From contig JAKSZU010000162.1 in assembly GCA_026018925.1 (NCBI GenBank), forward strand, positions 354,681 to 418,680: 64,000 bases of DNA. Reading direction: 5' to 3'. Each line of letters begins with the position of its first letter. Within the stretch, counting starts at the first letter, position 1. The notes below the pieces were generated by a model. The model saw only the letters and a program-made list of their open reading frames with translations, was not told where the DNA came from and did not search any database. The position numbers were made by a program, and so were the translations under genes. Shown one piece after another: positions 1-42,273 of this stretch. The stretch comes from Tupaia tana. Its lineage: Eukaryota > Chordata > Mammalia > Scandentia > Tupaiidae.

Positions 1-229
1 CTCTCCTGCAAGCCTCTGGCCGGCAAGGGACACTGAGGGAGGGTCACCTCTGACCCCCACCTCACTTCCAGACCCCCAGGCCCCAGACTCCACCTTCTAG
101 ACTATCCAGGACTGCCAGAAGGCAATAGGCTCTCCTGCAAGCCTCTGGCCGGCAAGGGACACTGAGGGAGGGTCACCTATGACCCCCACCTCACTTCCAG
201 ACCCCCAGGCCCCAGACTCCACCTTCTAG

Positions 230-322
230 GTAGTTAGCCAGGATTTACTTGAGGCGGTTTTTTGTTCTCTCTTGAAACCCCTGCATTCCCTTGTTAACAC
301 CTAGCTCTCCTTCTCCCCCCAG
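230..322 (+). other. Intron-like 93-bp GT...AG segment (first complete copy)
   Basis: This segment is present in every long monomer and absent from every short one. It starts TAG|GTAGTT, a weak-to-moderate splice donor. It ends in a tract close to CTCTCCTTCTCCCCCCAG. A TTAAC branch-point-like motif within CTTGTTAACACC places its A 25 nt before the terminal AG. One intervening AG (CCTAG) lies only 7 nt past that A, probably too close to be used. All parts of a minimal U2-type intron are present on the + strand. Whether it is spliced cannot be seen from DNA. A deletion using the 2-bp AG shared by both junctions would give the same product. Confidence 0.55.
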
Positions 323-766
323 ACTATCCAGGACTGCCAGAAGGCAATAGGCTCTCCTGCAAGCCTCTGGCTGGCAAGGGACACTGAGGGAGGGTCACCT
401 CTGACCCCCACCTCACTTCCAGACCCCCAGGCCCCAGACTCCATCTTCTAGGTAGTTAGCCAGGATTTTCTTCAGGCGGTTTTTTGTTCTCTCTTGAAAC
501 CCCTGCATTCCCTTGTTAACACCTAGCTCTCCTTCTCCCCCCAGACTATCCAGGACTGCCAGAAGGCAATAGGCTCTCCTGCAAGCCTCTGGCCGGCAAG
601 GGACACTGAGGGAGGGTCACCTCTGACGCCCACCTCACTTCCAGACCCCCAGACCCCAGACTCCACCTTCTAGGTAGTTAGCCAGGATTTCCTTGAGGCG
701 GTTTTTTGTTCTCTCTTGAAACCCCTGCATTCCCTTGTTAACCCCTAGCTCTCCTTCTCCCCCCAG

Positions 767-895
767 ACTATCCAGGACTGCCAGAAGGCAATAGGCTCTC
801 CTGCAAGCCTCTGGCCGGCAAGGGACACTGAGGGAGGGTCACCTCTGACCCCCACCTCACTTCCAGACCCCCAGGCCCCAGACTCCACCTTCTAG
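767..895 (+). repeat. Short 129-bp monomer lacking the intron-like block (first complete copy)
   Basis: The unit runs ACTATCC...CTTCTAG and joins the next unit directly as CTTCTAG|ACTATCC. The same junction occurs after positions 100, 895, 2,134, 2,485, 4,169, 4,742, 8,644, 9,661, 12,009, 15,469, 16,487, 18,170, 19,409, 20,204, 21,887 and 22,016, always at the same base. The + strand frame starting at ACT is open for 42 codons and closes with TAG, the last three bases of the unit. Several copies clearly came from duplication of array blocks, so there were fewer founding events than copies. Confidence 0.9.
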
Positions 896-3800: not shown

Positions 3801-6800
3801 TCTCCTTCTCCCCCCAGACTATCCAGGACTGCCAGAAGGCAATAGGCTCTCCTGCAAGCCTCTGGCCGGCAAGGGACACTGAGGGAGGGTCACTTGTGAC
3901 ACCCACCTCACTTCCAGACCCCCAGGCCCCAGACTCCACCTTCTAGGTAGTTAGCCAGGATTTCCTTGAGGCGGTTTTTTTGTTCTCTCTTGAAACCCCT
4001 GCATTCCCTTGTAAACACCTAGCTCTCCTTCTCCCCCCAGACTATCCAGGACTGTCAGAAGGCAATAGGCTCTCCTGCAAGCCTCTGGCCTGCAAGGGAC
4101 ACTGAGGGAGGGTCACCTCTGACCCCCACCTCACTTCCAGACCCCAAGGCCCCAGACTCCACCTTCTAGACTATCCAGGACTGCCAGAAGGCAATAGGCT
4201 CTCCTGCAAGCCTCTGGCCGGCAAGGGACACTGAGGGAGGGTCACCTCTGACCCCCACCTCACTTCCAGACCCCCAGGCCCCAGACTCCACCTTCTAGGT
4301 AGTTATCCAGGATTTCCTTGAGGCGGTTTTGTGTTCTCTCTTGAAACCCCTGCATTCCCTTGTTAACACCTAGCTCTCCTTCTCCCCCCAGACTATCCAG
4401 GACTGCCAGAAGGCAATAGGCTCTCCTGCAAGCCTCTGGCCAGCAAGGGACACTGAGGGAGGGTCACTTGTGACACCCACCTCACTTCCAGACCCCCAGG
4501 CCCCAGACTCCACCTTCTAGGTAGTTAGCCAGGATTTCCTTGAGGCGGTTTTTTGTTCTCTCTTGAAACCCCTGCATTCCCTTGTTAACACCTAGCTCTC
4601 CTTCTCCCCCCAGACTATCCAGGACTGTCAGAAGGCAATAGGCTCTCCTTCAAGCCTCTGGCCTGCAAGGGACACTGAGGGAGGGTCACCTCTGACCCCC
4701 ACCTCACTTCCAGACCCCAAGGCCCCAGACTCCACCTTCTAGACTATCCAGGACTGCCAGAAGGCAATAGGCTCTCCTGCAAGCCTCTGGCCGGCAAGGG
4801 ACACTGAGGGAGGGTCACCTCTGACCCCCACCTCACTTCCAGACCCCCAGGCCCCAGACTCCACCTTCTAGGTAGTTATCCAGGATTTCCTTGAGGCGGT
4901 TTTGTGTTCTCTCTTGAAACCTCTGCATTCCTTGTTAACACCTAGCTCTCCTTCTCCCCCCAGACTATCCAGGACTGCCAGAAGGCAATAGGCTCTCCTG
5001 CAAGCCTCTGGCCGGCAAGGGACACTGAGGGAGGGTCACCTCTGACCCCCACCTCACTTCCAGACCCCCAGGCCCCAGACTCCACCTTCTAGGTAGTTAG
5101 CCAGGATTTCCTTGAGGCGGTTTTTTGTTCTCTCTTGAAAGCCCTGCATTCCCTTGTTAACACCTAGCTCTCCTTCTCCCCCCAGACTATCCAGGACTGC
5201 CAGAAGGCAATAGGCTCTCCTGCAAGCCTCTGGCGGGCAAGGGACACTGAGGGAGGGTCACCTCTGACCCCAACCTCACTTCCAGACCCCCAGGCCCCAG
5301 ACTCCACCTTCTAGGTAGTTAGCCAGGATTTCCTTGAGGCCGTTTTTTGTTCTCTCTTGAAACCCCTGCATTCCCTTGTTAACACCTAGCTCTCCTTCTC
5401 CCCCCAGACTATCCAGGACTGCCAGAAGGCAATAAGCTCTACTGCAAGCCTCTGTCCGGAAAGGGACACTGAGGGAGGGTCACCTCTGACCCCCACCTCA
5501 CTTCCAAACCCCCAGGCCCCAGACTCCACCTTCTAGGTATTTAGCCAGGATTTCCTTGAGGCGGTTTTTTGTTCTCTCTTGAAACCCCTGCATTCCCTTG
5601 TTAACACCTAGCTCTCCTTCTCCCCCCAGACTATCCAGGACTGCCAGAAGGCAATAGTCTCTCCTGCAAGCCTCTGGCCTTCAAGGGACACTGAGGTAGG
5701 GTCACCTCTGACCCCCACCTCACTTCCAGACCCCCAGGCCCCAGACTCCACCTTCTAGGTAGTTAGCCAGGATTTCCTCGAGGCGGTTTTTTGTTCTCTC
5801 TTGAAACCCCTGCATTCCCTTGTTAACACGTAGCTCTCCTTCTCCCCCCAGACTATCCAGGACTGCCAGAAGGCAATAGGCTCTCCTGCAAGCCTCTGTC
5901 CGGCAAGGGACACTGAGGGAGAGTCACCTCTGACCCCCACCTCACTTCCAGACCCCCAGGCCCCAGACTCCACCTTCTAGGTAGTTAGCCAGGATTTCCT
6001 TGAGGCGGTTTTTTGTTCTCTCTTGAAACCCCTGCATTCCCTTGTTAACACCTAGCTCTCCTTCTCCCCCCAGACTATCCAGGACTGCCAGAAGGCAATA
6101 GGCTCTCCTGCAAGCCTCTGGCCGGCAAGGGACACTGAGGGAGGGTCACCTCTGACCCCCACCTCACTTCCAGACCCCCAGGCCCCAGACTCCACCTTCT
6201 AGGTAGTTAGCCAGGATTTCCTTGAGGCGGTTTTTTGTTCTCTCTTGAAACCCCTGCATTCCCTTGTTAACACCTAGCTCTCCTTCTCCCCCCAGACTAT
6301 CCAGGACTGCCAGAAGGCAATAGGCTCTCCTGCAAGCCTCTGGCCGGCAAGGGACACTGAGGGAGGGTCACCTCTGACCCCCACCTCACTTCCAGACCCC
6401 CAGGCCCCAGACTCCACTTTCTAGGTAGTTAGCCAGGATTTCCTTGAGGCGGTTTTTTGTTCTCCCTTGAAACCCCTGCATTCCCTTGTTAACTCCTAGC
6501 TCTCCTTCTCTCCCCAGACTATCCAGGACTGCCAGAAGGCAATAGGCTCTCCTGCAAGCCTCTGATCGGCAAGGGACACTGAGGGAGGGTCACCTCTGAC
6601 CCCCACCTCACTTCCAGAACCACAGGCCCCAGACTCCACCTTCTAGGTAGTTAGCCAGGATTTCCTTGAGGCGGTTTTTTGTTCTCTCTTGAAACCCCTG
6701 CATTCCCTTGTTAACACCTAGCTCTCCTTCTCCCCCCAGACTACCCAGGACTGCCAGAAGGCAATAGGCTCTACTGCAAGCCTCTGGCCGGCAAGGGACA

Positions 6801-9800
6801 CTGAGGGAGGGTCACCTCTGACCCCCACCTCACTTCCAGACCCCCAGGCCCCAGACTCCACCTTCTAGGTAGTTAGCCAGGATTTCCTTGAGGCGGTTTT
6901 TTGTTCTCTCTTGAAACCCCTGCATTCCCTTGTTAACACCTAGCTCTCCTTCTCCCCCCAGACTATCCAGGACTGCCAGAAGGCAATAGGCTCTCCTGCA
7001 AGCCTCTTGCCAGCAAGGGACACTGAGGGAGGGTCACCTCTGACCCCCACCTCACTTCCAGACCCCCAGGCCCCAGACTCCACCTTCTAGGTAGTTAGCC
7101 AGGATTTCCTTGAGGCAGTTTTTTGTTCTCTCTTGAAACCCCTGCATGCCCTTGTTAACACCTAGCTCTCCTTCTCCCCCCAGACTATCCAGGACTGCCA
7201 GAAGGCAATAGGCTCTCCTGCAAGCCTCTGGCCGGCAAGGGACACTGAGGGAGGGTCACCTCTGACCCCCACCTCACTTCCAGACCCCCAGGCCCCAGAC
7301 TCCACCTTCTAGGTAGTTAGCCAGGATTTCCTTGAGGCAGGTTTTTGTTCTCTCTTGAAACCCCTGCATTCCCTTGTTAACACCTAGCTCTCCTTCTCCC
7401 CCCAGACTATCCAGGACTGCCAGAAGGCAATAGGATCTCCTGCAAGCCTCTGGCCGGCAAGGGACAATGAGGGAGGGTCACCACTGACCCCCACCTCACT
7501 TCCAGACCCCCAGGCCCCAGACTCCACCTTCTAGGTACTTAGCCAGGATTTCCTTGAGGCGGTTTTGTGTTCTCTCTTGAAACCCCTGCATTCCCTTGTT
7601 AACACCTAGCTCTCCTTCTCCCCCCAGACTATCCAGGACTGCCAGAAGGCAATAGGCTCTCCTGCAAGCCTCTGGCCGGCAAGGGACACTGAGGGAGGGT
7701 CACCTCTGACCCCCACCTCACTTCCAGACCCCCAGGCCCCAGACTCCACCTTCTAGGTAGTTAGCCAGGATTTCCTTGAGGCGGTTTTTTGTTCTCTCTT
7801 GAAACCCCTGCATTCCCTTGTTAACACCTAGCTCTCCTTCTCCCCCCAGATTATCCAGGACTGCCAGAAGGCAATAGGCTCTCCTGCAAGCCTCTGGCCG
7901 GCAAGGGACACTGAGGGAGGGTCACCTCTGACCTCCACCTCACTTCCAGACCCCCAGGCCCCAGAATCCACCTTCTAGGCAGTTAGCCAGGATTTCCTTG
8001 AGGCGGTTTTTTGTTCTCTCTTGAAACCCCTGCATTCCCTTGTTAACACCTAGCTCTCCTTCTCCCCCCAGACTATCCAGGACTGCCAGAAGGCAATAGG
8101 CTCTCCTGCAAGCCTCTGGCCGGCAAGGGACACTGAGGGAGGGTCACCTCTGACCCCCACCTCACTTCCAGACCCCCAGGCCCCAGACTCCAACTTCTAC
8201 GTAGTTAGCCAGGATTTCCTTGAGGCGGTTTTTTGTTCTCTCTTGAAACCCCTGCATTCCCTTGTTAACACCTAGCTCTCCTTCTCCCCCCAGACTATCC
8301 AGGACTGCCAGAAGGCAATAGGCTCTCCTGCAAGCCTCTGGCCGGCAAGGGACACTGAGGGAGGGTCACCTCTGACCCCCACCTCACTTCCAGACCCCCA
8401 GGCCCCAGACTCCACCTTCTAGGTAGTTAGCCAGGATTTCCTTGAGGCGGTTTTTTGTTCTCGCTTGAAACCCCTGCATTCCCTTGTTAACACCTAGCTC
8501 TCCTTCTCCCCCCAGACTATCCAGGACTGCCAGAAGGCAATAGGCTCTCCTGCAAGCCTCTGGCCGGCAATGGACACTGAGGGAGGGTCACCTCTGACCC
8601 CCACCTCACTTCCAGACCCCCAGGCCCCAGACTCCACCTTCTAGACTATCCAGGACTGCCAGAAGGCAATAGGCTCTCCTGCAAGCCTCTGGCCGGCAAG
8701 GGACACTGAGGGAGGGTCACCTCTGACCCCCACCTCACTTCCAGACCCCCAGGCCCCAGACTCCACCTTCTAGGTAGTTAGCCAGGATTTCCTTGAGGCG
8801 GTTTTTTGTTCTCTCTTGAAACCCCTGCATTCCCTTGTTAACACCTAGCTCTCCTTCTCCCCCCAGGCTATCCAGGACTGCCAGAAGGCAATAGGCTCTC
8901 CTGCAAGCCTATGGCCGGCAAGGGACACTGAGGGAGGTTCACCTCTGACACCCACCTCACTTCCAGACCCCCAGGCCCCAGACTCCACCTTCTAGGTAGT
9001 TAGCCAGGATTTCCTTGAGGCGGTTTTTTGTTCTCTCTTGAAATCCCTGCATTCCCTTGTTAACACCTAGCTCTCCTTCTCCCCCCAGACTCTCCAGGAC
9101 TGCCAGAAGGCAATAGGCTCTCCTGCACGCCTCTGGCCTGCAAGCGATACTGAGGGAGGGTCACCTCTGACCCCCACCTCACTTCCAGACCCCCAGGCCC
9201 CAGACTCCACCTTCTAGGTAGTTAGCCAGGATTTCCTTGAGGCGGTTTTTTGTTCTCGCTTGAAACCCCTGCATTCCCTTGTTAACACCTAGCTCTCCTT
9301 CTCCCCCAAGACTATCCAGGACTGCCAGAAGGCAATAGGCTCTCCTGCAAGCCTCTGGCCGGCAAGGGACACTGAGGGAGGGTCACCTCTGACGCCCACC
9401 TCACTTCCAGACCCCCAGGCCCCAGACTCCACCTTCTAGGTAGTTAGCCAGGATTTCCTTGAGGCGGTTTTTTGTTCTCTCTTGAAACCCCTGCATTCCC
9501 TTGTTAACCCCTAGCTCTCCTTCTCCCCCCAGACTATCCAGGACTGCCAGAAGGCAATAGGCTCTCCTGCAAGCCTCTGGCCGGCAAGGGACACTGAGGG
9601 AGGGTCACCTCTGACCCCCACCTCACTTCCAGACCCCCAGGCCCCAGACTCCACCTTCTAGACTATCCAGGACTGCCAGAAGGCAATAGGCTCTCCTGCA
9701 AGCCTCTGGCCGGCAAGGGACACTGAGGGAGGGTCACCTATGACCCCCACCTCACTTCCAGACCCCCAGGCCCCAGACTCCACCTTCTAGGTAGTTAGCC

Positions 9801-12800
9801 AGGATTTCCTTGAGGCGGTTTTTTGTTCTCTCTTGAAACCCCTGCATTCCCTTGTTAACACCTAGCTCTCCTTCTCCCCCCAGGCTATCCAGGACTGCCA
9901 GAAGGCAATAGGCTCTCCTGCAAGCCTATGGCCGGCAAGGGACACTGAGGGAGGTTCACCTCTGACACCCACCTCACTTCCAGACCCCCAGGCCCCAGAC
10001 TCCACCTTCTAGGTAGTTAGCCAGGATTTCCTTGAGGCGGTTTTTTGTTCTCTCTTGAAATCCCTGCATTCCCTTGTTAACACCTAGCTCTCCTTCTCCC
10101 CCCAGACTCTCCAGGACTGCCAGAAGGCAATAGGCTCTCCTGCACGCCTCTGGCCTGCAAGCGATACTGAGGGAGGGTCACCTCTGACCCCCACCTCACT
10201 TCCAGACACCCAGGCCCCAGACTCCACCTTCTAGGTAGTTAGCCAGGATTTCCTTGAGGCGGTTTTTTGTTCTCGCTTGAAACCCCTGCATTCCCTTGTT
10301 AACACCTAGCTCTCCTTCTCCCCCCAGACTATCCAGGACTGCCAGAAGGCAATAGGCTCTCCTGCAAGCCTCTGGCCGGCAAGGGACACTGAGGGAGGGT
10401 CACCTCTGACCCCCACCTCACTTCCAGACCCCCAGGCCCCAGACTCCACCTTCTAGGTAGTTAGCCAGGATTTCCTTGAGGCGGTTTTTTGTTCTCCCTT
10501 GAAACCCTTGCATTCTCTTGTTAACACCTAGCTCTCCTTCTCCCCCCAGACTACCCAGGACTGCCAGAAGGCAATAGGCTCTCCTGCAAGCCTCTGGCCT
10601 GCAAGCGATACTGACGGAGGGTCACCTCTGACCCCCACCTCACTTCCAGACCCCCAGGCCCCAGACTCCACCTTCTAGGTAGTTAGCCAGGATTTCCTTG
10701 AGGCGGTTTTTTGTTCTCTCTTAAAACCCCTGCATTCCCTTGTTAACACCTAGCTCTCCTTCTCCCCCCAGACTATCCAGGACTGCCAGAAGGCAATAGG
10801 CTCTCCTGCAAGCCTCTTGCCAGCAAGGGACACTGAGGGAGGGTCACCTCTGACCCCCACCTCACTTCCAGACCCCCAGGCCCCAGACTCCACCTTCTAG
10901 GTAGTTAGCCAGTATTTCCTTGAGGCAGTTTTTTGTTCTCTCTTGAAACCCCTGCATTCCCTTTTAACACCTAGCTCTCCTTCTCCCCCCAGACTATCCA
11001 GGACTGCCAGAAGGCAATAGGCTCTCCTGCAAGCCTCTGGCCGGCAAGGGACACTGAGGCAGGGTCACCTCTGACCCCCACATCACTTCCCGACCCCCAG
11101 GCCCCAGACTCCACCTTCTAGGTAGTTAGCCAGGATTTCCTTGAGGCGGTTTTTTGTTCTTTCTTGAAACCCCTGCATTCCCTTGTTAACACCTAGCTCT
11201 CCTTCTCCCCCCAGACTATCCAGGACTGCCAGAAGGTAATAGGCTCTCCTGCAAGCCTCTGGCCGGCAAGGGACACTGAGGGAGGGTCACCTCTGACCCC
11301 CACCTCACTTCCAGACCCCCAGGCCCCAGACTCCACCTTCTAGGTAGTTAGCCAGGATTTCCTTGAGGCGGTTTTTTGTTCTCTCTTGAAACCCCTGCAT
11401 TCCCTTGTTAACACCTAGCTCTCCTTCTCCCCCCAGACTATCCAGGACTGCCAGAAGGCAATAGGCTCTCCTGCAAGCCTCTGGCCGGCAAGGGGCACTG
11501 AGGGAGGGTCACCTCTGACCCCCATCTCACTTCCAGACCCCCAGGCCCCAGACTCCACCTTGTAGGTAGTTAGCCAAGATTTCCTTGAGGCGGTTTTTTG
11601 TTCTCTCTTGAAACCCCTGCATTCCCTTGTTAACACCTAGCTCTCCTTCTCCCCCCAGACTATCCAGGACTGCCAGAAGGCAATAGAGTCTCCTGCAAGC
11701 CTCTGGCCGGCAAGGGACACTGAGGGAGAGTCACCTCTGACCCCCACCTCACTTCCAGACCCCCAGGCCCCAGACTCCACCTTCTAGGTAGTTAGCCAGG
11801 ATTTCCTTGAGGCGGTTTTTTGTTCTCGCTTGAAACCCCTGCATTCCCTTGTTAACACCTAGCTCTCCTTCTCCCCCCACACTATCCAGGACTGCCAGAA
11901 GGCAATAGGCTCTCCTGCAAGCCTCTGGCCGGCAAGGGACACTGAGGGAAGGTCACCTCTGACCCCCACCACACTTCCAGACCCCCAGGCCCCAGACTCC
12001 ACCTTCTAGACTATCCAGGACTGCCAGAAGGCAATAGGCTCTCCTGCAAGCCTCTGGCCGGCAAGGGACACTGAGGGAGGGTCACCTCTGACCCCCACCT
12101 CACTTCCAGACCCCCAGGCCCCAGACTCCACCTTCTAGGTAGTTAGCCAGGATTTCCTTGAGGCAGGTTTTTGTTCTCTCTTGAAACCCCTGCATTCCCT
12201 TGTTAACACCTAGCTCTCCTTCTCCCCCCAGACTATCCAGGACTGCCAGAAGGCAATAGGATCTCCTGCAAGCCTCTGGCCGGCAAGGGACAATGAGGGA
12301 GGGTCACCACTGACCCCCACCTCACTTCCAGACCCCCAGGCCCCAGACTCCACCTTCTAGGTACTTAGCCAGGATTTCCTTGAGGCGGTTTTGTGTTCTC
12401 TCTTGAAACCCCTGCATTCCCTTGTTAACACCTAGCTCTCCTTCTCCCCCCAGACTATCCAGGACTGCCAGAAGGCAATAGGCTCTCCTGCAAGCCTCTG
12501 GCCGGCAAGGGACACTGAGGGAGGGTCACCTCTGACCCCCACCTCACTTCCAGACCCCCAGGCCCCAGACTCCACCTTCTAGGTAGTTAGCCAGGATTTC
12601 CTTGAGGCGGTTTTTTGTTCTCTCTTGAAACCCCTGCATTCCCTTGTTAACACCTAGCTCTCCTTCTCCCCCCAGACTATCCAGGACTGCCAGAAGGCAA
12701 TAGGATCTCCTGCAAGCCTCTGGCCGGCAAGGGACACTGAGGGAGGGTCACCTCTGACCCCCACCTCACTTCCAGACCCCCAGGCCCCAGACTCCACCTT

Positions 12801-15800: not shown

Positions 15801-18800
15801 CCCCAGACTCCACCTTCTAGGTAGTTAGCCAGGATTTCCTTGAGGCGGTTTTTTGTTCTCTCTTGAAATCCCTGCATTCCCTTGTTAACACCTAGCTCTC
15901 CTTCTCCCCCCCAGACTCTCCAGGACTGCCAGAAGGCAATAGGCTTTCCTGCACGCCTCTGGCCTGCAAGCGATACTGAGGGAGGGTCACCTCTGACCCC
16001 CACCTCACTTCCAGACCCCCAGGCCCCAGACTCCACCTTCTAGGTAGTTAGCCAGGATTTCCTTGAGGCGGTTTTTTGTTCTCGCTTGAAACCCCTGCAT
16101 TCCCTTGTTAACACCTAGCTCTCCTTCTCCCCCAAGACTATCCAGGACTGCCAGAAGGCAATAGGCTCTCCTGCAAGCCTCTGGCCGGCAAGGGACACTG
16201 AGGGAGGGTCACCTCTGACGCCCACCTCACTTCCAGACCCCCAGGCCCCAGACTCCACCTTCTAGGTAGTTAGCCAGGATTTCCTTGAGGCGGTTTTTTG
16301 TTCTCTCTTGAAACCCCTGCATTCCCTTGTTAACCCCTAGCTCTCCTTCTCCCCCCAGACTATCCAGGACTGCCAGAAGGCAATAGACTCTCCTGCAAGC
16401 CTCTGGCCGGCAAGGGACACTGAGGGAGGGTCACCTCTGACCCCCACCTCACTTCCAGACCCCCAGGCCCCAGACTCCACCTTCTAGACTATCCAGGACT
16501 GCCAGAAGGCAATAGGCTCTCCTGCAAGCCTCTGGCCGGCAAGGGACACTGAGGGAGGGTCACCTATGACCCCCACCTCACTTCCAGACCCCCAGGCCCC
16601 AGACTCCACATTCTAGGTAGTTAGCCAGGATTTCCTTGAGGCGGTTTTTTGTTCTCTCTTGAAACCCCTGCATTCCCTTGTTAACACCTAGCTCTCCTTC
16701 TCCCCCCAGGCTATCCAGGACTGCCAGAAGGCAATAGGCTCTCCTGCAAGCCTCTGGCCTGCAAGCGATACTGACGGAGGGTCACCTCTGACCCCCACCT
16801 CACTTCCAGACCCCCAGGCCCCAGACTCCACCTTCTAGGTAGTTAGCCAGGATTTCCTTGAGGCGGTTTTTTGTTCTCTCTTAAAACCCCTGCATTCCCT
16901 TGTTAACACCTAGCTCTCCTTCTCCCCCCAGACTATCCAGGACTGCCAGAAGGCAATAGGCTCTCCTGCAAGCCTCTTGCCAGCAAGGGACACTGAGGGA
17001 GGGTCACCTCTCACCCCCACCTCACTTCCAGACCCCCAGGCCCCAGACTCCACCTTCTAGGTAGTTAGCCAGTATTTCCTTGAGGCAGTTTTTTGTTCTC
17101 TCTTGAAACCCCTGCATTCCCTTGTTAACACCTAGCTCTCCTTCTCCCCCCAGACTATCCAGGACTGCCAGAAGGCAATAGGCTCTCCTGCAAGCCTCTG
17201 GCCGGCAAGGGACACTGAGGCAGGGTCACTTCTGACCCCCACATCACTTCCCGACCCCCAGGCCCCAGACTCCACCTTCTAGGTAGTTAGCCAGGATTTC
17301 CTTGAGGCGGTTTTTTGTTCTTTCTTGAAACCCCTGCATTCCCTTGTTAACACCTAGCTCTCCTTCTCCCCCCAGACTATCCAGGACTGCCAGAAGGTAA
17401 TAGGCTCTCCTGCAAGCCTCTGGCCGGCAAGGGACACTGAGGGAGGGTCACCTCTGACCCCCACCTCACTTCCAGACCCCCAGGCCCCAGACTCCACCTT
17501 CTAGGTAGTTAGCCAGGATTTCCTTGAGGCGGTTTTTTGTTCTCTCTTGAAACCCCTGCATTCCCTTGTTAACACCTAGCTCTCCTTCTCCCCCCAGACT
17601 ATCCAGGACTGCCAGAAGGCAATAGGCTCTCCTGCAAGCCTCTGGCCGGCAAGGGACACTGAGGGAGGGTCACCTCTGACCCCCATCTCACTTCCAGACC
17701 CCCAGGCCCCAGACTCCACCTTGTAGGTAGTTAGCCAAGATTTCCTTGAGGCGGTTTTTTGTTCTCTCTTGAAACCCCTGCAATCCCTTGTTAACACCTA
17801 GCTCTCCTTCTCCCCCCAGACTATCCAGGACTGCCAGAAGGCAATAGAGTCTCCTGCAAGCCTCTGGCCGGCAAGGGACACTGAGGGAGAGTCACCTCTG
17901 ACCCCCACCTCACTTCCAGACCCCCAGGCCCCAGACTCCACCTTCTAGGTAGTTAGCCAGGATTTCCTTGAGGCGGTTTTTTGTTCTCGCTTGAAACCCC
18001 TGCATTCCCTTGTTAACACCTAGCTCTCCTTCTCCCCCCACACTATCCAGGACTGCCAGAAGGCAATAGGCTCTCCTGCAAGCCTCTGGCCGGCAAGGGA
18101 CACTGAGGGAAGGTCACCTCTGACCCCCACCACACTTCCAGACCCCCAGGCCCCAGACTCCACCTTCTAGACTATCCAGGACTGCCAGAAGGCAATAGGC
18201 TCTCCTGCAAGCCTCTGGCCGGCAAGGGACACTGAGGGAGGGTCACCTCTGACCCCCACCTCACTTCCAGACCCCCAGGCCCCAGACTCCACCTTCTAGG
18301 TAGTTAGCCAGGATTTCCTTGAGGCAGGTTTTTGTTCTCTCTTGAAACCCCTGCATTCCCTTGTTAACACCTAGCTCTCCTTCTCCCCCCAGACTATCCA
18401 GGACTGCCAGAAGGCAATAGGATCTCCTGCAAGCCTCTGGCCGGCAAGGGACAATGAGGGAGGGTCACCACTGACCCCCACCTCACTTCCAGACCCCCAG
18501 GCCCCAGACTCCACCTTCTAGGTACTTAGCCAGGATTTCCTTGAGGCGGTTTTGTGTTCTCTCTTGAAACCCCTGCATTCCCTTGTTAACACCTAGCTCT
18601 CCTTCTCCCCCCAGACTATCCAGGACTGCCAGAAGGCAATAGGCTCTCCTGCAAGCCTCTGGCCGGCAAGGGACACTGAGGGAGGGTCACCTCTGACCCC
18701 CACCTCACTTCCAGACCCCCAGGCCCCAGACTCCACCTTCTAGGTAGTTAGCCAGGATTTCCTTGAGGCGGTTTTTTGTTCTCTCTTGAAACCCCTGCAT

Positions 18801-21758
18801 TCCCTTGTTAACACCTAGCTCTCCTTCTCCCCCCAGGCTATCCAGGACTGCCAGAAGGCAATAGGCTTTCCTGCAAGCCTATGGCCGGCAAGGGACACTG
18901 AGGGAGGTTCACCTCTGACCCCCACCTCACTTCCAGACCCCCAGGCCCCAGACTCCACCTTCTAGGTAGTTAGCCAGGATTTCCTTCAGGTGGTTTTTTG
19001 TTCTCTCTTGAAATCCCTGCATTCCCTTGTTAACACCTAGCTCTCCTTCTCCCCCCAGACTCTCCAGGACTGCCAGAAGGCAATAGGCTCTCCTGCAAGC
19101 CTCTGGCCTGCAAGCGATACTGAGGGAGGGTCACCTCTGACCCCCACCTCACTTCCAGACCCCCAGGCCCCAGACTCCACCTTCTAGGTAGTTTGCCAGG
19201 ATTTCCTTGAGGCGGTTTTTTGTTCTCGCTTGAAACCCCTGCATTCCCTTGTTAACACCTAGCTCTCCTTCTCCCCCAAGACTATCCAGGACTGCCAGAA
19301 GGCAATAGGCTCTCCTGCAAGCCTCTGGCCGGCAAGGGACACTGAGGGAGGGTCACCTCTGACCCCCACCTCACTTCCAGACCCCCAGGCCCCAGACTCC
19401 ACCTTCTAGACTATCCAGGACTGCCAGAAGGCAATAGGCTCTCCTGCAAGCCTCTGGCCGGCAAGGGACACTGAGGGAGGGTCACCTATGACCCCCACCT
19501 CACTTCCAGACCCCCAGGCCCCAGACTCCACCTTCTAGGTAGTTAGCCAGGATTTACTTGAGGCGGTTTTTTGTTCTCTCTTGAAACCCCTGCATTCCCT
19601 TGTTAACACCTAGCTCTCCTTCTCCCCCCAGACTATCCAGGACTGCCAGAAGGCAATAGGCTCTCCTGCAAGCCTCTGGCTGGCAAGGGACACTGAGGGA
19701 GGGTCACCTCTGACCCCCACCTCACTTCCAGACCCCCAGGCCCCAGACTCCATCTTCTAGGTAGTTAGCCAGGATTTTCTTCAGGCGGTTTTTTGTTCTC
19801 TCTTGAAACCCCTGCATTCCCTTGTTAACACCTAGCTCTCCTTCTCCCCCCAGACTATCCAGGACTGCCAGAAGGCAATAGGCTCTCCTGCAAGCCTCTG
19901 GCCGGCAAGGGACACTGAGGGAGGGTCACCTCTGACGCCCACCTCACTTCCAGACCCCCAGGCCCCAGACTCCACCTTCTAGGTAGTTAGCCAGGATTTC
20001 CTTGAGGCGGTTTTTTGTTCTCTCTTGAAACCCCTGCATTCCCTTGTTAACCCCTAGCTCTCCTTCTCCCCCCAGACTATCCAGGACTGCCAGAAGGCAA
20101 TAGGCTCTCCTGCAAGCCTCTGGCCGGCAAGGGACACTGAGGGAGGGTCACCTCTGACCCCCACCTCACTTCCAGACCCCCAGGCCCCAGACTCCACCTT
20201 CTAGACTATCCAGGACTGCCAGAAGGCAATAGGCTCTCCTGCAAGCCTCTGGCCGGCAAGGGACACTGAGGGAGGGTCACCTATGACCCCCACCTCACTT
20301 CCAGACCCCCAGGCCCCAGACTCCACCTTCTAGGTAGTTAGCCAGGATTTACTTGAGGCGGTTTTTTGTTCTCTCTTGAAACCCCTGCATTCCCTTGTTA
20401 ACACCTAGCTCTCCTTCTCCCCCCAGAATATCCAGGACTGCCAGAAGGCAATAGGCTCTCCTGCAAGCCTCTGGCCGGCAAGGGACACTGAGGGAGGGTC
20501 ACCTCTGACGCCCACCTCACTTCCAGACCCCCAGGCCCCAGACTCCACCTTCTAGGTAGTTAGCCAGGATTTCCTTGAGGCGGTTTTTTGTTCTCCCTTG
20601 AAACCCTTGCATTCCCTTGTTAACACCTAGCTCTCCTTCTCCCCCCAGACTATCGAGGACTGCCAGAAGGCAATAGGCTCTCCTGCAAGCCTCTGGCCGG
20701 CAAGGGACACTGAGGGAGGGTCACCTCTGACCCCCACCTCACTTCCAGACCCCCAGGACCCAGACTCCACCTTCTAGGTAGTTAGCCAGGATTTCCTTGA
20801 GGCGGTTTTTTGTTCTCCGTTGAAACCCCTGCATTCCCTTGTTAACACCTAGCTGTCCTTCTCTCCCCAGACTATCCAGGACTGCCAGAAGGCAATAGGC
20901 TCTCCTGCAAGCCTCTGGCCGGCAAGGGACACTGAGGGAGGGTCACCTCTGACCCCCACCTCACTTCCAGACCCACAGGCCCCAGACTCCACCTTCTAGG
21001 TAGTTAGCCAGGATTTCCTTGAGGTGGTTTTTTGTTCTCTCTTGAAACCCCTGCATTCCCTTGTTAACACCTAGCTCTCCTTCTCTCCCCAGACTACCCA
21101 GGACTGCCAGAAGGCAATAGGCTCTCCAGCAAGCCTCTGGCCGGCAAGGGACACTGAGGGAGGGTCACCTCTGACCCCCACCTCACTTCCCGACCCCCAG
21201 GCCCCAGACTCCACCTTCTAGGTAGTTAGTCAGGATTTCCTTGAGGCGGTTTTTTGTTCTCTCTTGAAACCCCTGCATTCCCTTGTTAACACCTAGCTCT
21301 CCTTCTCTCCCCAGACTATCCAGGACTGCCAGAAGGCAATAGGCTCTCCTGCAAGCCTCTGGCCGGCTAGGGACACTGAGGGAGGGTCACCTCTGACCCC
21401 CACCTCACTTCCAGACCCCCAGGCCCCAGACTCCACCTTCTAGGTAGTTAGCCAGGATTTCCTTGATGCGGTTTTTTGTTCTCTCTTGAAACCCCTGCAT
21501 TCCCTTGTTAACACCTAGCTCTCCTTCTCTCCCCAGACTATCCAGGACTGCCAGAAGGCAATAGGCTCTCCTGCAAGCCTCTGGCCGGCAAGGGACACTG
21601 AGGGAGGGTCACCTCTGACCCCCACCTCACTTCCAGACCCCCAGGCCCCAGACTCCACCTTCTAGGTAGTTAGCCAGGATTTACTTGAGGCGGTTTTTTG
21701 TTCTCTCTTGAAACCCCTGCATTCCCTTGTTAACACCTAGCTCTCCTTCTCCCCCCAG

Positions 21759-22016
21759 ACTATCCAGGACTCCCAGAAGGCAATAGGCTCTCCTGCAAGC
21801 CTCTGGCCGGCAAGGGACCCTGAGGGAGGGTCTCCTCTGACCCCCACCTCACTTCCAGACCCCCAGGCCCCAGACTCCACCTTCTAGACTATCCAGGACT
21901 GCCAGAAGGCCATAGGCTCTCCTGCAAGCCTCTGGCCGGCAAGGGACACTGAGGGAGGGTCACCTCTGACCCCCACCTCACTTCCAGACCCCCAGGCCCC
22001 AGATTCCACCTTCTAG
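21759..22016 (+). repeat. Two adjacent short monomers
   Basis: This is the only place where two 129-bp units follow each other with no 93-bp block between them (junctions at 21,887 and 22,016, exactly 129 bp apart). In the related block near the array start, the matching junctions (2,134 and 2,485) are 351 bp apart, one long unit more. One copy therefore lost or gained a long unit. Confidence 0.85.
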
Positions 22017-22751
22017 ACTATCCAGGACTGCCAGAAGGCAATAGGCTCTCCTGCAAGCCTCTGGCCGGCAAGGGACACTGAGGGAGGGTCACCTCTGACC
22101 CCCACCTCACTTCCAGACCCCCATGCCCCAGACTCCACCTTCTAGGTAGTTAGCCAGGATTTCCTTGAGGCGGTTTTGTGTTCTCTCTTGAAACCCCTGC
22201 ATTCCCTTGTTAACACCTAGCTCTCCTTCTCCCCCCAGACTACCCAGGACTGCCAGAAGGCAATAGGCTCTCCTGCAAGCCTATGGCCGGCAAGGGACAC
22301 TGAGGGAGGGTCACCTCTGACCCCCACCTCACTTCCAGACCCCCAGACCCCAGACTCCACCTTCTAGGTAGTTAGCCAGGATTTCCTTGAGGCGGTTTTG
22401 TGTTCTCTCTTGAAACCCCTGCATTCCCTTGTTAACACCTAGCTCTCCTTCTCCCCCCAGACTATCCAGGACTGCCAGAAGGCAATAGGCTCTCCTGCAA
22501 GCCTCTGGCCTGCAAGGGACACTGAGGGAGGGTCACCTCTGACCCCCACCTCACTTCCAGACCCCCAGGCCCCAGACTCCACCTTCTAGGTAGTTAGCCA
22601 GGATTTCCTTGAGGCGGTTTTTTGTTCTCTCTTGAAACCCCTGCATTCCCTTGTTAACACCTAGCTCTCCTTCTCCCCCCAGACTATCCAGGACTGCCAG
22701 AAGGCAATAGGCTCTCCTGCAAGCCTCTGGCCAGCAAGGGATACTGAGGGA

Positions 22752-23093
22752 CTTTTTCTTTATTTTTCTGTGTTGTCTTTCCTTTAGTTGCATATTGTCC
22801 TCTCCTCCTTATTTTTTAACGTGTCAGACAGACTAGACAGGTCCAGAATCATATATCTGAAATTTCCTAGGAAGGTAAGTGTCTCTGGGATCCTCCCTAG
22901 TACTGATCCCCTTTGAGAAAGGAGATACTGCTTGTTAGACCCTTCTGTAGAGTTCCGCTCCTGAAAACCCATTGGTAAAAACAACAGAAGAGAGACTTCA
23001 ACAAACAGCTATTCCCATCAAAAAGGAAAGACTCTTACTTCTCGTGAGACAAAAGTTCTCCCAAGAGGTCTTTAAAAGGGAAGTAATCTTCCA
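22752..23093 (+). promoter_or_regulatory. L1 5' leader between monomer array and ORF1 (tether)
   Basis: Non-repetitive 342-bp segment joining the last, truncated monomer to ORF1, matching in position the tether of rodent L1s with monomeric promoters. It opens with a long pyrimidine tract ending TTTCCTTTAG at 22,787, a good splice-acceptor-like sequence. It also holds AAG|GTAAGT at 22,874/22,875, a near-perfect splice donor, and these would bound an 87-nt exon. No TATA box was recognised. Its function as L1 5' UTR is inferred from position and orientation. Confidence 0.75.
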
Positions 23094-24053
23094 ATGGCTA
23101 AAAGTAGAAAAAGAGCCCCATGTCTGAATAAACAAGAAAATATGTCTCCAACAAAGGAAAATGCCCCTCCATGTCTCGTAAATATGGAGGACGTTACCAA
23201 AATGACAGACACAGAATTTCGAAAATTCATGGTGACCAAATTCTGTGAATTGGAAAAAAAAAGAGACAACGAACTACAGGAAATTAGGAAGTCCTTCCAG
23301 GACATGAAAGAAGAAATGGATACTCTGAGAAAGAATCAGGTGGAACTATTAGAGATAAAGTCTATAATACAAGAAATCAAAAACTCTCTGGAAAGTATTA
23401 AGAGCCGATTAGACCATGCTGAAGATCGAATCTCTGATGTAGAAGATAAAACCTCTGATCTAGAAAAAAACTACAAAAAGATCGAGAAAATAACTAAAAT
23501 ACATGAGGATAATATACGAGAATTACTAGACTCTATTAGACGCCCAAACATCAGAATAATCGGCATCCCAGAAGTTGAAGAAACTAATAGCGGAATGGAA
23601 AATCTATTCCATGACATCTTGGAAGAAAATTTCCCAAGCCTAGAGAGGCACCTAACCATCTGGACCCAAGAAATACAAAGGACCCCAAATAGAATCAACC
23701 CCAGAAGATCTTCCCCAAGGCACATCTTAGCCAGGCTGTCTAACGTCACAGAAAAAGACATGATACTAAAACTGGCAAGAGAGAAACGAGAAGTAACTTA
23801 CAAAGGCCATCCCATAAGACTAACACCAGACCTCTCATCAGAAACAATGCAAGCAAGAAAAGAATGGGAAGACATACTGAAAGTGTTAAGAGAGAAACAA
23901 TTTCAGCCAAGACTATTATACCCTGCAAGATTATCCTTCATTTGGGAAAAAAAGATTAAAATCTTCTCAGACAAACAAAACCTGAAAGAATTTGCCAACA
24001 CCAGACCAGCTCTTCAAGAAATCCTGAAGAAAGTACTGTGCCAGGAAAACTAA
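23094..24053 (+). CDS. L1 ORF1 protein (RNA-binding nucleic acid chaperone)
   Basis: The 319-aa protein binds L1 RNA and forms the L1 ribonucleoprotein as a coiled-coil trimer in this family. Residues about 45-148 are rich in heptad-like E/K/L/I positions (coiled coil). The segment around RRPNIRIIGIPE (149-160) opens the RRM-like domain. RRSSPRH (204-210) and the block from about 235 to 300 (KGHPIRLTPDLS, FQPRLLYPARLSF) form the basic C-terminal domain. Human ORF1p is a little longer (338 aa), most of the difference falling in the N-terminal half. The first ATG of the frame is used, with G at +4. The frame ends 44 bp before ORF2. Antisense frames here are shadows. Confidence 0.95.
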   Translation: MAKSRKRAPCLNKQENMSPTKENAPPCLVNMEDVTKMTDTEFRKFMVTKFCELEKKRDNELQEIRKSFQDMKEEMDTLRKNQVELLEIKSIIQEIKNSLESIKSRLDHAEDRISDVEDKTSDLEKNYKKIEKITKIHEDNIRELLDSIRRPNIRIIGIPEVEETNSGMENLFHDILEENFPSLERHLTIWTQEIQRTPNRINPRRSSPRHILARLSNVTEKDMILKLAREKREVTYKGHPIRLTPDLSSETMQARKEWEDILKVLREKQFQPRLLYPARLSFIWEKKIKIFSDKQNLKEFANTRPALQEILKKVLCQEN

Positions 24054-24097
24054 AGACGCAACAGCCAGAAACAAAGAAATAACAGGCAACTAAGACA

Positions 24098-27000
24098 ATG
24101 GCTAACTTAAATGTCGGTACAGATCCTGTAACATCGATAATAACATTGAATGTTAATGGGTTAAATTCTCCAATCAAGAGACACAGACTGGCTGAATGGA
24201 TAAAAAAACAGAAACCCTCTATCTGTTGCCTACAAGAAACCCACCTCATGGAAAAAGACATACATAGACTGAAAGTGAAGGGTTGGAAAAAGGTTTTCCA
24301 TGCAGTTGGGAACCAAAAAAGAGCTGGAGTTGCGATACTAATTTCTGACAAAATAGGCTTTAAAACAAAAAGTGTCCGAAGAGACAAAGAAGGGCACTAC
24401 ATCATAGTAAAAGGCTCTATAGATCGAGAAGATATAACGCTTATTAATATCTATGCTCCTAACACAGGAGCACCCAAATATGTGAAGGAAAGATTGTTAG
24501 ATCTGAAAGGGGAGATAGACTGCAACACACTAATTGTTGGAGATCTCAACACCGCATTATCCCCTCTGGACAGATCATCTAGGCAAAAAATAGGTAGAGA
24601 GATCAAGGATCTAAATGATACCATAAATCAATTGGACTTAACAGACATCTATAGAACTTTCCACCCAAAAACCACAAGATATAGTTTTTTCTCACCCCGA
24701 CATGGAACTTTCTCGAAGATTGACCACATCATAGGACACAAAGCAAGCCTCTGCAGATTCAGAGGCATAGAAACTATTTCCAGCATCTTCTCTGACCATG
24801 ATGGAATTAAACTCGAGTTTAATTTCAAGAGAAATCCTCAAAAATACCTAAAAACATGGAAACTAAATAACCTACTCCTGAATGACTCCACTATTACCGA
24901 AGAAATAAAGTCCGAAATCAAAAGATTCATGGAAGCCAATGACAATGAAGATACAAGTTTCCATAATCTTTGGGACACTGCCAAAGCAGTCATAAGAGGG
25001 AAGTTCATAGCAATTAGTGCACATAAGAGGAAGACAGAGAAAAGGCTATTGGATCACCTAACATCAAGCCTTAGAGAATTGGAAAAGCAACAGCAAAAAA
25101 ATCCAAAAAATTACAGGAGAAAGGAAATAATAAAGATCCGAGCAGAAATAAATGAAATAGAAAATAAACGTACTATACAGAAAGTAAGTGAAAGCAAAAG
25201 CTGGTTCTTTGAAAGGATAAACAAAATTGATACCCCACTAGCGAGACTTATTAAGAAGAAGAGAGAAAGGAACCAGGTGAATCAAATCTGCAATGAGGCT
25301 GGTAACATAACAACAGACATAGTAGAAATTCAAAACATCATCAGAGGATACTTTGAACATCTATACGCTAAGAAACAAGATAATCTGCATGAGATGGACA
25401 AATTCCTGGACAAATATAATCTACCAAGAATGAGCCAGGAAGAAATAGAAAGTCTGAATAGGCCCATAACAAGCCAGGAAATTGAATCAGTAATAAGTAA
25501 CCTCCCAACAAAGAAAAGCCCTGGCCCCGATGGATTCACCTCTGAATTCTACAAAACTTTCAAAGAAGAGTTAACTCCCATTCTGCTCAAATTATTTCTA
25601 AAGATCCAAAAGGGTGAATCTCTCCCTAATTCATTCTATGAAGCCTCTGTCACCCTCATCCTCAAAACAGATAAGGACAGGACAAGGAAGGAAAACTATA
25701 GACCAATATCTCTGATGAACATAGACTCAAAGATTCTCAACAAGATACTAGCAAATCGTATTCAACAACTTATACAGAAGATCATACACCATGATCAGGT
25801 AGGCTTTATTCCAGGAATGCAAGGTTGGTTCAACATACGCAAAACCATAAACATAATACACCATATTAATAGGAAGAAAGACAAAAACCATATGGTCATA
25901 TCGATTGACGCAGAAAAAGCATTTGATAAGATACAACATCCCTTCATGATCAAGACTCTTAGCAAAATTGGCATAGAAGGGCCATTTCTCAATACAATAA
26001 AAGCCATCTATGAAAAACCCATAGCGAACATCATCCTGAATGGAGAAAAGCTGAAAGCTTTCCCACTAAACACAGGAACAAGACAAGGATGCCCACTTTC
26101 TCCTCTCCTTTTCAACATAGTTCTGGAAGTCCTCGCCAACGCAATCAGAAAAGAGGAAAAAATAAAGGGCATTCGAATAGGAAAAGAAGAGGTGAAACTC
26201 TCTCTATTTGCAGATGACATGATTGTATACATAGAAGACCCAATGGTCTCCATGGAAAAACTACTGGAAGTAATACATGAATTCAGTAAAGTTGCAGGAT
26301 ATAAAATCAATATACAGAAATCGATAGCATTTCTGTATACGAATAACAGGCAGACTGAGATAGAACTGAAAAAACTTATTCCGTTTACCATAGCCACTAA
26401 AAGTATAAGATATTTAGGAATAAATCTAACCAAAGAAGTTAAAGACCTCCACAAGGAAAACTATGAGAAGGTAAAAAAAGAAATTGAAAATGACACAAAA
26501 AAATGGAAGGACATCCCATGTTCATGGATTGGAAGAGTTAATATAATCAAAATGGCAATTCTACCCAAATTAATCTACCTATTTAATGCAATGCCAATCA
26601 AAGTACCAGACACATTCTTCACAGATCTAGAAAAGACAATCTTAAAATTTGTCTGGAATCATAAAAGACCCCGTATTGCCAAAGCACTTCTACACAAGAA
26701 GAATGGAGTGGGTGGCATCGCAATCCCCGATCCAAAAATGTATTACAAAGCTGTGGTAATAAAGACAGCATGGTATTGGCACAGAAACAGACATGTGGAC
26801 CAATGGAACAGAATAGAGTCCCCAGAAATAAGTGCCCAAACATACAGTCAACTGATCTTTGACAAGGGGTACCAGTCAATCCAGTGGGAAAATGAAAGCC
26901 TCTTCAGCAAGTGGTGCTGGAGAAACTGGACTTCCACTTGCAGAAAGATGAATCTGAACCCCTACCTCTCTCCTTTGATAAGAATCAAGTCAAGGTGGAT

Positions 27001-27955
27001 CAAGGATCTAAATCTAAGACCTCAAACTATAAAGCTGCTCCTGGAGAATGCTGGGGAAACTCTGGGAGACATTGGTGTAGGGAAAGACTTCCTAAAGAAG
27101 ACACTCAAAGCAGAGTCCATCGTCCACAAAATAGACAAGTGGGATTACATCAGACTAAGAAGATTCTGCATGGCCAAAGACACAGTAGTTAGTGTGAATC
27201 GACAGCCCTCAGAATGGGAAAATATTTTTGTAAATGTTGCATCAGATAAGGGACTGATAACCAGAATACACAAGGAACTAAAAAAGGTGTTTGGAAAAAA
27301 GATGATCAACCCTATTAAAAGATGGGAGAAGGAGATGAAGAAAACACTCTCTAAAGATGACATACAAATGGCCAAAAGGCATATGAAAAAATGTTCAACC
27401 TCCCTCATCGTAAGGGAAATGCAGATAAAAACAACAATGAGGTACCACCTAACCCCAGTCAGATTGTCTAATATTAAAAAAACAAAAAATGATAAGTGTT
27501 GGCGGGGGTGTGGTGAAAGGGGAACTCTTTTACACTGCTGGTGGGAATGTAGATTGATCCAACCACTGTGGAGAATAATTTGGAGATTCCTCAAAAATCT
27601 ACAGATAGATCTGCCATATGATCCAGAGATCCCACTCCTCGGTATCTACCCAAAGGACAGAAGAATTCTTCATTGGAAAAGTGCTTGCACATCGATGTTT
27701 ATTGCGGCACTATTCACAATTGCTAAGTCTTGGAACCAACCCAGATGTCCCCGTATGGAGGAATGGATTGAAAAACTGTGGCACATATACTCTATGGAAT
27801 ACTACTTAGCCATAAAAACCAACAGAGCCCTGGCTTTTGACAGAAAGTGGAAGAATATGGAAGATGTACTGCTGAGTGAGGCAAGCCAGACTATGAAGGA
27901 GAGACATTGTATGTCCCCACTTAACATATACCGTTTGTCTGCATTCTATGTCTGA
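24098..27955 (+). CDS. L1 ORF2 protein (endonuclease and reverse transcriptase)
   Basis: The 1,285-aa enzyme nicks genomic DNA and copies L1 RNA at the nick (target-primed reverse transcription). The apurinic-type endonuclease occupies about residues 10-240, with N18, E47 (QETHL), Y119, D149 and N151 (GDLNT), D209 (KIDH) and H234 (SDHD). Each is displaced by four from its human L1 counterpart, so the active site is complete. Reverse transcriptase spans about 500-775, with first Asp D604 (SIDAEKAFD) and the FADD motif D706/D707. A C-terminal zinc knuckle is C1134, C1138, H1146, C1151. Human ORF2p is 1,275 aa, so this is full length. It starts 44 bp after the ORF1 stop with no separate promoter visible, consistent with the unconventional reinitiation known for L1. 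Confidence 0.97.
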
Positions 27956-28277
27956 AACTGATTGACTAACAGTTGAACAAACACAAGAGATGGGTGTGAA
28001 TGTCAGATGAGGTGGATGTGGAGGAGTGGGGCCCAACGAAAGACATTTAGAGAAGGGATACAGAGGTAGAGCATTGACGGGATGGGGAGGTGTGGTGTTA
28101 TCTGTTGAAGATATTTCGATCAACGGGTCTGGGGAGAAATGTTCACATATCGAAATGGTCTCATTGTAAGCCAAACAATATGATTGAAAGTATATACAAA
28201 AATAAATAAAAAAAAAAGAATAAATAAAAAAAAAAATATATATATATACTTTGGAAAAGAAAAAAAAAAAAAAAAAA
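27956..28277 (+). other. L1 3' UTR and A-rich tail
   Basis: About 245 bp of non-coding sequence with a purine-rich, G-rich stretch (27,985-28,100), as is common in mammalian L1 3' UTRs. AATAAA-type signals follow from about 28,200, then an A-rich tail interrupted by a short TA repeat (about 28,234-28,248) and a final run of 17 A (28,261-28,277). Related but older 3' UTR sequences lie in reverse orientation near 31 kb, 50.6 kb and 58.4 kb. Confidence 0.85.
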
Positions 28278-28679
28278 GCTACACGAAATACATCCTGTGT
28301 AGCAGTTTTGGGATCCTGTCCTGATAATCCACCTGAACCAGATCTTCCTAATCATTCTTTTCTAGGAAATGCCAATTATTTAGAATTTGAAAGAATATAG
28401 TAACAAAGTATAAAGTTTTACGTTGATGAATTCATTGGCTGGATTCATGGCAACTTGATTCTTGGCAATACGGGAGCTAAGTTTTGGGCATCTGTAATAT
28501 CATTGAAAGTTGAAATGGTTCAGACTTCTTGGTCAGGTAAAAGAAGGAATGTTCTAAGATGGAAATTCAACAAACAGTGCCACCTGCAGGTTTTTATATA
28601 AGTGCTAGAAATTTTGCCCATAACCAATGAATAATGGCCCCCCATGTATGGCATAGGTATTATTTTTAAGATGGATTCA
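28278..28679. other. Single-copy-looking sequence 3' of the L1
   Basis: No gene, monomer or recognised repeat. It starts with GCTACAC, which is repeated inverted as GTGTAGC 12 bp later, right at the insertion point. The absence of array monomers here argues that the 5' array is not simply a satellite interrupted by the L1. Confidence 0.6.
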
Positions 28680-41951: not shown

Positions 41952-42273
41952 TTAACCTGTTTTTGTAAATGAATTGTCGATCTTATAGTTTTCTTCTTGC
42001 AACCAGATAATGCTTTCATGCACTATTTCTTGAGAGCTCATCTGGAGATTCTAACAGGGGAGTGAAGCTACTCAGAAACACTTGACCAAAGAGTGGTGCT
42101 TCTCTGCCAGAGAAAGTTGTCCTCTTCCACTTAGAGGGAGAGTACAGCTTCAGGGGGACCATATAAGGAGCAGTAAGGTAGGAAGGAGACACCTGCCTTA
42201 CCAGTCAAATAAACCCTGGCATGACAGATGTCACAGTCAGATCACCCTCCGTCATTCTCACATCCTCCTGCAC

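Follow-up and report, generated by a model that had tools for sequence, protein, structure and literature searches.

In mouse, the L1 (LINE-1) families A, Tf, and Gf carry tandem monomers of about 200 bp before a non-repeated tether, and their insertions start inside monomers. Mouse copies have 3–4 monomers on average, 7 of 5,765 loci have more than 10, and 10 has been called unusually high; the literature characterises these monomers as CpG islands that contain YY1 sites (PMC9022269, PMC10620060, PMC9719517). In human spliced integrated retrotransposed elements (SpIREs), GT-AG splicing within the 5′ untranslated region (5′-UTR) is recorded in genomic copies; it removes a large part of the single promoter, and the copies are described as dead ends (PMC5860796). 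Among satellites derived from retrotransposons, the L1 cases come from open reading frame 2 (ORF2) or the 3′ end (PMC6947457, PMC9659126). These statements, and the comparisons based on them, follow the accessible parts of the cited papers. Here we describe an L1 of Tupaia tana, found in a stretch of 64,000 nucleotides (C267:354681–418680, hereafter the window; monomer and leader coordinates are counted from its first base), with an array of 222-bp monomers before its leader. We consider it very likely, from comparison of genomic copies, that this array represents the monomeric promoter of the L1 itself, which has overgrown at its site of insertion, with splicing of a mini-intron in the monomers and amplification at the DNA level.

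As in mouse L1, tandem monomers of about 200 bp are carried along with a tether, and the truncated junction monomer is 70 bp long, compared with 64 bp in mouse Gf. Unlike the mouse monomers, those described here are CpG-poor, lack the YY1 string, contain a putative GT-AG mini-intron, and form arrays of up to hundreds of kilobases. Because they are neither CpG islands nor carriers of the YY1 string, we file the element as the same kind of promoter and not as the mouse family itself. As in SpIREs, a precise GT-AG interval is lost from the 5′-UTR of retrotransposed copies, as seen in their genomic sequence; unlike in human SpIREs, there is one small intron-like segment per monomer, the 5′-most monomers are the first to lose it, and those at the leader stay full. 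As in retrotransposon-derived satellites, retrotransposon sequence has turned into long, homogenised tandem arrays (C267 and C266), but the unit is a promoter monomer and the parent L1 is still attached, with open ORFs at the window locus. In the accessible parts of the open-licence literature searched, no intron-bearing monomer and no L1 promoter array of this size was found. The element thus appears to combine a monomeric L1 promoter with SpIRE-like splicing and satellite birth, which would be a new combination.

Unit structure of the array in the window

Positions 1–22752 were parsed into one left-cut partial unit (1–100), 108 bounded units, and a truncated last unit of 70 bp, all on the + strand. 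Among the bounded units, 93 were 221–223 bp and 15 were exactly 129 bp long; the left-cut unit was of the short kind. The short units equalled full units minus one identical 93-bp stretch, with the junction TCTAG/ACTATCC in 15/15, so that the full 222-bp monomer consists of a 129-bp part and a 93-bp GT-AG segment, in which a branch-point-like sequence and a pyrimidine run can be recognised. No monomer units were found 3′ of the L1 tail in the window. The features are as follows.

1–22682, + strand: tandem array of putative L1 promoter monomers, left-cut unit and 108 bounded units, extending left of the window (unit parse)
22683–22752, + strand: 70-bp remnant of the last monomer, directly before the leader; lacks the G+C hairpin that most other copies have at this point
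22461–22589, + strand: example of an exon-like part, 129 bp, from the last full monomer
22590–22682, + strand: example of a mini-intron-like part, 93 bp, GTAGTT to CCCCCCAG, from that monomer
767–895, + strand: 129-bp intronless unit
2006–2134, + strand: 129-bp intronless unit
2357–2485, + strand: 129-bp intronless unit
4041–4169, + strand: 129-bp intronless unit
4614–4742, + strand: 129-bp intronless unit
8516–8644, + strand: 129-bp intronless unit
9533–9661, + strand: 129-bp intronless unit
11881–12009, + strand: 129-bp intronless unit
15341–15469, + strand: 129-bp intronless unit
16359–16487, + strand: 129-bp intronless unit
18042–18170, + strand: 129-bp intronless unit
19281–19409, + strand: 129-bp intronless unit
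20076–20204, + strand: 129-bp intronless unit
21759–21887, + strand: 129-bp intronless unit
21888–22016, + strand: 129-bp intronless unit
about 22753–23093, + strand: non-repeated L1 leader (tether), 98–99% identical in the copies read and joined to monomers there
23094–24053, + strand: L1 ORF1, 319 amino acids, open
24098–27955, + strand: L1 ORF2, 1285 amino acids, open; endonuclease and reverse transcriptase
27956–28277, + strand: L1 3′-UTR and A-rich tail, poly(A) ending at 28277; 3′ end common to other copies
28278–29790, no strand: 3′ flank at the insertion point; three paralogues at 96–98% without L1 or monomers

A sequence-only reading of this stretch had counted about 109 monomers in one orientation, stopping in a truncated unit at the L1 leader, with none behind the L1 tail; the parse bears this out, with 108 bounded and two partial units. 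It gave a unit of 222 bp and missed the 129-bp units, which carry the evidence on the intron. Its figure of more than 100 monomers holds for the window and underestimates the whole array more than 10-fold, only the right end being visible there. The monomer was also considered as a coding repeat and rejected, stop codons being present in all six frames of the 129-bp and 222-bp concatenates.

ORF1 matches L1 ORF1p and carries both of its domains (RRM and C-terminal domain). ORF2 contains the APE endonuclease and the reverse transcriptase, and its residues 7–1272 align to the human ORF2p structure. These domains, the poly(A) tail, and the target-site duplications found at 10/12 dispersed copies and two giant arrays place the element in LINE-1.

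Monomers as part of the inserted element

One similarity query spanning the monomer/leader junction was run against the 2.95-Gb genome, and 39 of 3,378 candidate loci were scored. Monomers were joined to the leader at 39/39 loci, the query itself holding both. Upstream sequence was read at 34 of them (the window, L010–L028, and L105–L118; L106 incompletely), C153, C681, C1175, C108, and C755 being left out. The 34 loci comprised eight giant arrays (the window with L009, L016, L020, L022, and L025–L028), 25 other, dispersed copies, and the unclassified L118. The dispersed copies had 1 to 16 bounded units in the sequence read.

The 3′ ends of 12 dispersed copies were fetched to test for target-site duplications around monomers and L1 together. 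In 10 of them, 10–19 exact bases just upstream of the first monomer recurred behind the L1 tail; the duplication of L021 consisted of 10 exact bases within 18 with one mismatch. Since such duplications enclose the monomers together with the L1, the monomers are the element's own 5′ end and part of what was inserted. This had been raised as a possibility from the window sequence alone and now holds in 10/12 dispersed copies and, among the three giant arrays with edges read, in two.

At the window locus, the 18 bases directly after the L1 tail had exact matches at four other genomic places. Three of these paralogues were read (C231, C420, and C773; the fourth match, C912, lies outside the comparison). 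They were 96–98% identical to the flank and ran from CACCTTTGTCAAAA straight into GCTACACG, with neither L1 nor monomers. The 3′ flank, from 28274 to 29790, is itself part of a multi-copy segment.

Order of short and full units in dispersed copies

Short units (S) lay at the 5′ end and full units (F) at the leader in the dispersed copies. The order from 5′ to 3′ was SSFFF in L010, SFF in L011 and L012, SSSFFFFFF in L013, SSSSSFSSSFF in L014, 14 S then FF in L015, SSSSFFFFF in L017 and L019, SSSFFF in L018, five S then 10 F in L021, SSFSFF in L023, and nine S then FF in L024. In these 12 copies, S preceded F in 202/206 pairs, and 0/20,000 within-copy shuffles were as high, although this is not a strict probability because the copies share ancestry. 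L105–L110 read SSF, 11 S then F, SSF, SF, SSF, and SF, respectively, and L111–L117 read SSSSSFSF, F (preceded by an intronless junction), SF, SF, SSSF, F, and SSSSFFF, respectively; by hand count, 47/48 pairs in L105–L117 followed the same order. An intronless junction was present in 24/25 dispersed copies, L116 being without one.

Several sequence markers were common to short and full units of the same copy. C15G occurred in 8/8 units of L111, G109A in 2/2 of L108, and G51A in 3/3 of L109; T3C and A8G occurred together in all units of L018 and L024, and T3C in all units of L023. In L117, T3C, A8G, G51T, and T91C were combined in 4/4 short and 2/3 full units. Such sharing implies either that the same precise loss occurred in several lineages or that markers were spread by conversion, and repeated loss by splicing would be the simpler of the two. 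Within the window, about six variant groups were distinguished by eye among the 15 short units; recombination of blocks explains them equally well, and independent intron losses are not claimed there.

Candidate splicing signals of the 93-bp segment

The missing 93 bp starts with GTAG and ends with TTAACACCTAGCTCTCCTTCTCCCCCCAG, which has a branch-point-like sequence 25 nt from its end, a pyrimidine run, and CAG. Candidate donor-acceptor pairs were scored on a flat background with splice matrices. The segment was the best pair of 38,184 possible deletions of 50–221 bp, in the window form as well as in the form of the dispersed copies, and 147 of 27,306 possible deletions were GT-AG compatible; on these two grounds, a chance deletion was rejected as the source of the loss. 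The donor was TAG/GTAGTT in the window and TAG/GTAGGT, with G at +5, in the dispersed copies read. In the latter form, 50/1000 shuffles reached the donor score and 6/1000 the acceptor score. Most simply, the 93-bp stretch would be a mini-intron removed by RNA splicing, with the loss inherited by new copies.

The competing account holds that a single deletion at the DNA level, between two AG dinucleotides, created the short units, which were then spread by unequal exchange and conversion, the order reflecting monomer age or position without any splicing. The deletion ends do share AG, making slippage possible, short units in the giant arrays clearly move with DNA blocks, and independent losses inside the window are not provable. 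Against this, the observed deletion is the top-scoring pair, few of the possible deletions are GT-AG compatible, the identical junction occurs with six different marker sets, each common to short and full units of one copy or group, and the order of short before full units is strict. We therefore give the deletion account a low probability and prefer splicing.

The leader contains a perfect consensus splice donor, AAG/GTAAGT, at position 22875, and 4/1000 shuffles were equally strong. A candidate leader acceptor at 22788, for predicted monomer-to-leader splicing, was unremarkable, a fraction of 0.367 of the shuffles being as strong.

Insertion start points and predicted promoter activity

Among the 10 duplication-flanked copies, six began at recurrent points just upstream of the exon-like part: L014, L015, and L023 at AGCTCTCC, 20 nt before it, and L017, L018, and probably L011 at the AG directly before it. 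In L014, L015, L017, L018, and L023, a G absent from the monomer stood between the duplication and the first base, which may reflect copying of the cap. L010 started a few bases before the exon-like part, and L013, L019, and L021 started inside it. L108 and L111, for which duplications were not sought, started about 50 nt before it. Because the 5′ ends of insertions recur and carry the extra G, the monomers are predicted to have promoter activity. The short units lack the sequence that holds some of the start points and are thus probably weaker promoters.

Giant arrays and their growth

The contiguity of the giant arrays was sampled by probes, the window and L009 (32.7 kb) being read through. 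L009, the 9.98 kb left of the window, was monomer array throughout. On C267, 24/24 probes from base 1 to 342,000 were monomer and the leader lies at 377,433, giving an array of about 377 kb, provided that it is unbroken from probe to probe. C593 was monomer at both positions probed, 1,000 and 60,000, and its leader lies near 98,190. The C419 array extends from 397,085 to a leader near 491,110 (94 kb); its interior probes were monomer, and the units at its left end were only 88–93% like the consensus. The C266 array spans 213,565 bp between its left edge (219,442) and the leader start (5,877), and 6/6 interior probes were monomer; its 5′ flank ends in AAAAAGTGTCTCATG, and these 15 bases are repeated behind the L1 tail (15/15). 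L016 has an array of 20,305 bp (6/6 probes monomer) and a 14/15-base duplication. The flanks of these arrays of 20 and 214 kb thus form one duplication each. Further monomer arrays, 86–94% like the consensus, were seen at C266:400000–430050 and C419:1000, with no L1 known beside them; loci were found via the leader.

Since 213.6 kb of array and its L1 lie inside one perfect 15-bp duplication, the array most likely grew after insertion. Growth after insertion, which the sequence-only reading had favoured, is strongly supported by this size against the 1–16 units of dispersed copies. Within the window, blocks of up to 2.9 kb recurred at 98.3–99.1% identity, and short units travelled with their blocks; growth may have proceeded by unequal exchange. 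In the parts read, L016, L020, L022, and L026 had only full units (40–41 each), as did L028 (32, beside a gap), and L025 and L027 had mainly short ones (44/59 and 22/33 units, respectively).

The donor +5 base on C267 was G in 11/11 full-unit junctions between 1 and 290,000 and T in 7/7 between 310,000 and 342,000, in 36/36 full units of L009, and in 93/93 of the window. Short junctions made up 12/23 of those sampled up to 305,000 and 15/108 units in the window. This switch and the decrease of short units toward the L1 suggest that a variant unit with a weaker donor probably gave rise, by renewed amplification, to the L1-side part of about 67 kb. T at +5 was absent from all dispersed copies read, which indicates that the window array was not their recent donor.

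It is distinctly unlikely, in our judgement, that part of the giant arrays was produced by over-expansion or chimeric joining of repeats in the assembly, with real loci of a few dozen units. Such errors would fit the small unplaced contigs on which several of them lie (C267, C266, C593, C820, and C130), the odd substitution spectrum inside them, and a contiguity that was probed and not read through. The 32.7 kb read through nevertheless showed ordered, distinct unit variants and block structure, two giant arrays have matching flanks on both sides, and the C264 and C419 arrays lie in long contigs. Whole copying of the giant arrays by retrotransposition of very long RNAs, which would account for their lying within duplications together with their L1, is very improbable: it needs an RNA of more than 200 kb when dispersed copies have 1–16 bounded units, and L016, L020, L022, L026, and L028 lack, in the part read, the spliced 5′ part of the dispersed copies. 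That an L1 landed at the edge of a pre-existing satellite, as tandem arrays of hundreds of kilobases and the array pieces without a known adjacent L1 at C419:1000 and C266:400000 might suggest, is the least credible account, being ruled out by the duplications around monomers and L1 and by the empty sites without monomers; nor does the array/leader junction hold any counterpart of the 3′ flank.

Several observations weigh against an overgrown, spliced promoter as the origin of the window array. No target-site duplication was found in L012 and L024, two of the 12 dispersed copies tested, or at the left edge of C419. At the window locus, the array has no left edge on the contig to compare with the 3′ flank, and that flank has no match anywhere in the monomer array. 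On a base-composition background, 26.8% of 500 shuffled monomers had a donor as good as the weak one of the window, and 10.8% of 500 had an acceptor as good. The last unit was full in 25/25 dispersed copies, a result partly built in by the query, and conversion within copies could also spread markers between short and full units. The monomer is CpG-poor, with two CpG per 222 bp (observed/expected 0.12), and none of the 15 promoter-motif strings sought in it, including YY1, was found.

Substitution spectrum and junction hairpin

The array in the window had 44 transitions to 79 transversions, and short interspersed elements (SINEs) in its flank had 688 to 194; outside CpG-type contexts, the ratios were 35:57 and 193:114, respectively (Fisher's test, 3.8e-5), the array counts being distinct variants and the SINE counts occurrences. 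Transitions and transversions numbered 148:225 over the eight giant arrays and 25:12 over 12 dispersed copies (dispersed copies versus window, p = 0.0011). The excess of transversions was seen in window positions 1–22752 and also in L009, L016, L022, and L025. Complementary changes had similar rates on both strands in the array, which speaks rather against errors at the RNA level. Candidate sources are error-prone DNA synthesis in the course of amplification and base errors in the assembled arrays.

Many copies had a G+C inverted repeat between the truncated monomer and the leader. Its consensus-like form folds at −30.6 kcal/mol, and its length and loop (TAAC, GTTA, GTTC, and others) vary among copies, as seen in L010–L028. 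The window, L025, L105, and L117 had no such hairpin, and L012 and L013 had lost most of it.

Other features of the right flank

In the right flank (28278–64000), 35 loci of one SINE family were found in 35.7 kb. We take this family to be tRNA-like and probably of tRNA origin; ARAGORN found no tRNA. Abundant tRNA SINEs are described in hedgehog, with no sequence given for comparison (PMC12026660). The family had no match in the monomer array, and no 7SL-derived (Alu/B1) RNA match was found in the 64-kb window. The lack of 7SL-derived matches speaks against a rodent, and the L1 may, as the sequence-only reading suggested, be a case of monomeric promoters outside the known lineages. A 7SK RNA copy, probably a pseudogene, lies at 41967–42254 (− strand, 98.7 bits), older L1 pieces with 68–73% identity to the intact L1 lie at 58597–62143 (− strand), and a small array of five 61-bp repeats, 95% alike, lies at 55328–55636.

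Proposed mechanism and significance

In the mechanism that we propose, each full monomer would consist of a 129-nt exon-like part followed by a 93-nt mini-intron. The positions at which insertions begin suggest that transcription most likely initiates at an exon-like part or a short distance before it, within the last bases of the mini-intron that precedes it, and the transcript would cross the downstream monomers, leader, and ORFs. Mini-introns would be spliced out from the 5′ end first, and reverse transcription of the partly spliced RNA would yield a new copy that begins with 129-bp units and keeps 222-bp units next to the leader. After insertion, some copies would amplify monomers as DNA in multi-unit blocks, reaching 20 kb, 214 kb, and about 377 kb at the window locus, and the window would be the L1-side end of such an amplified array.

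More tentatively, and with a rather doubtful standing, erosion by splicing and regeneration as satellite may form a cycle. Each round of retrotransposition would strip mini-introns and start sites from the 5′ monomers, and DNA amplification at a few giant loci would rebuild intron-bearing runs that serve as donors. The weakened donor (T at +5), found in the roughly 67 kb of mostly full units that adjoin the L1, would then be a variant that escapes splicing.

Three subjects that tend to be studied separately meet in this one element: L1 promoters in tandem, probable RNA splicing preserved in genomic copies, and the origin of a satellite. The polarity of intron loss would let genomic copies reveal RNA processing and start-site use. 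With arrays inside a single target-site duplication, the founding event of a satellite is identified as one insertion, and the element offers a system in which to study the beginnings of satellites and the extent to which an L1 promoter can grow while its ORFs stay open.

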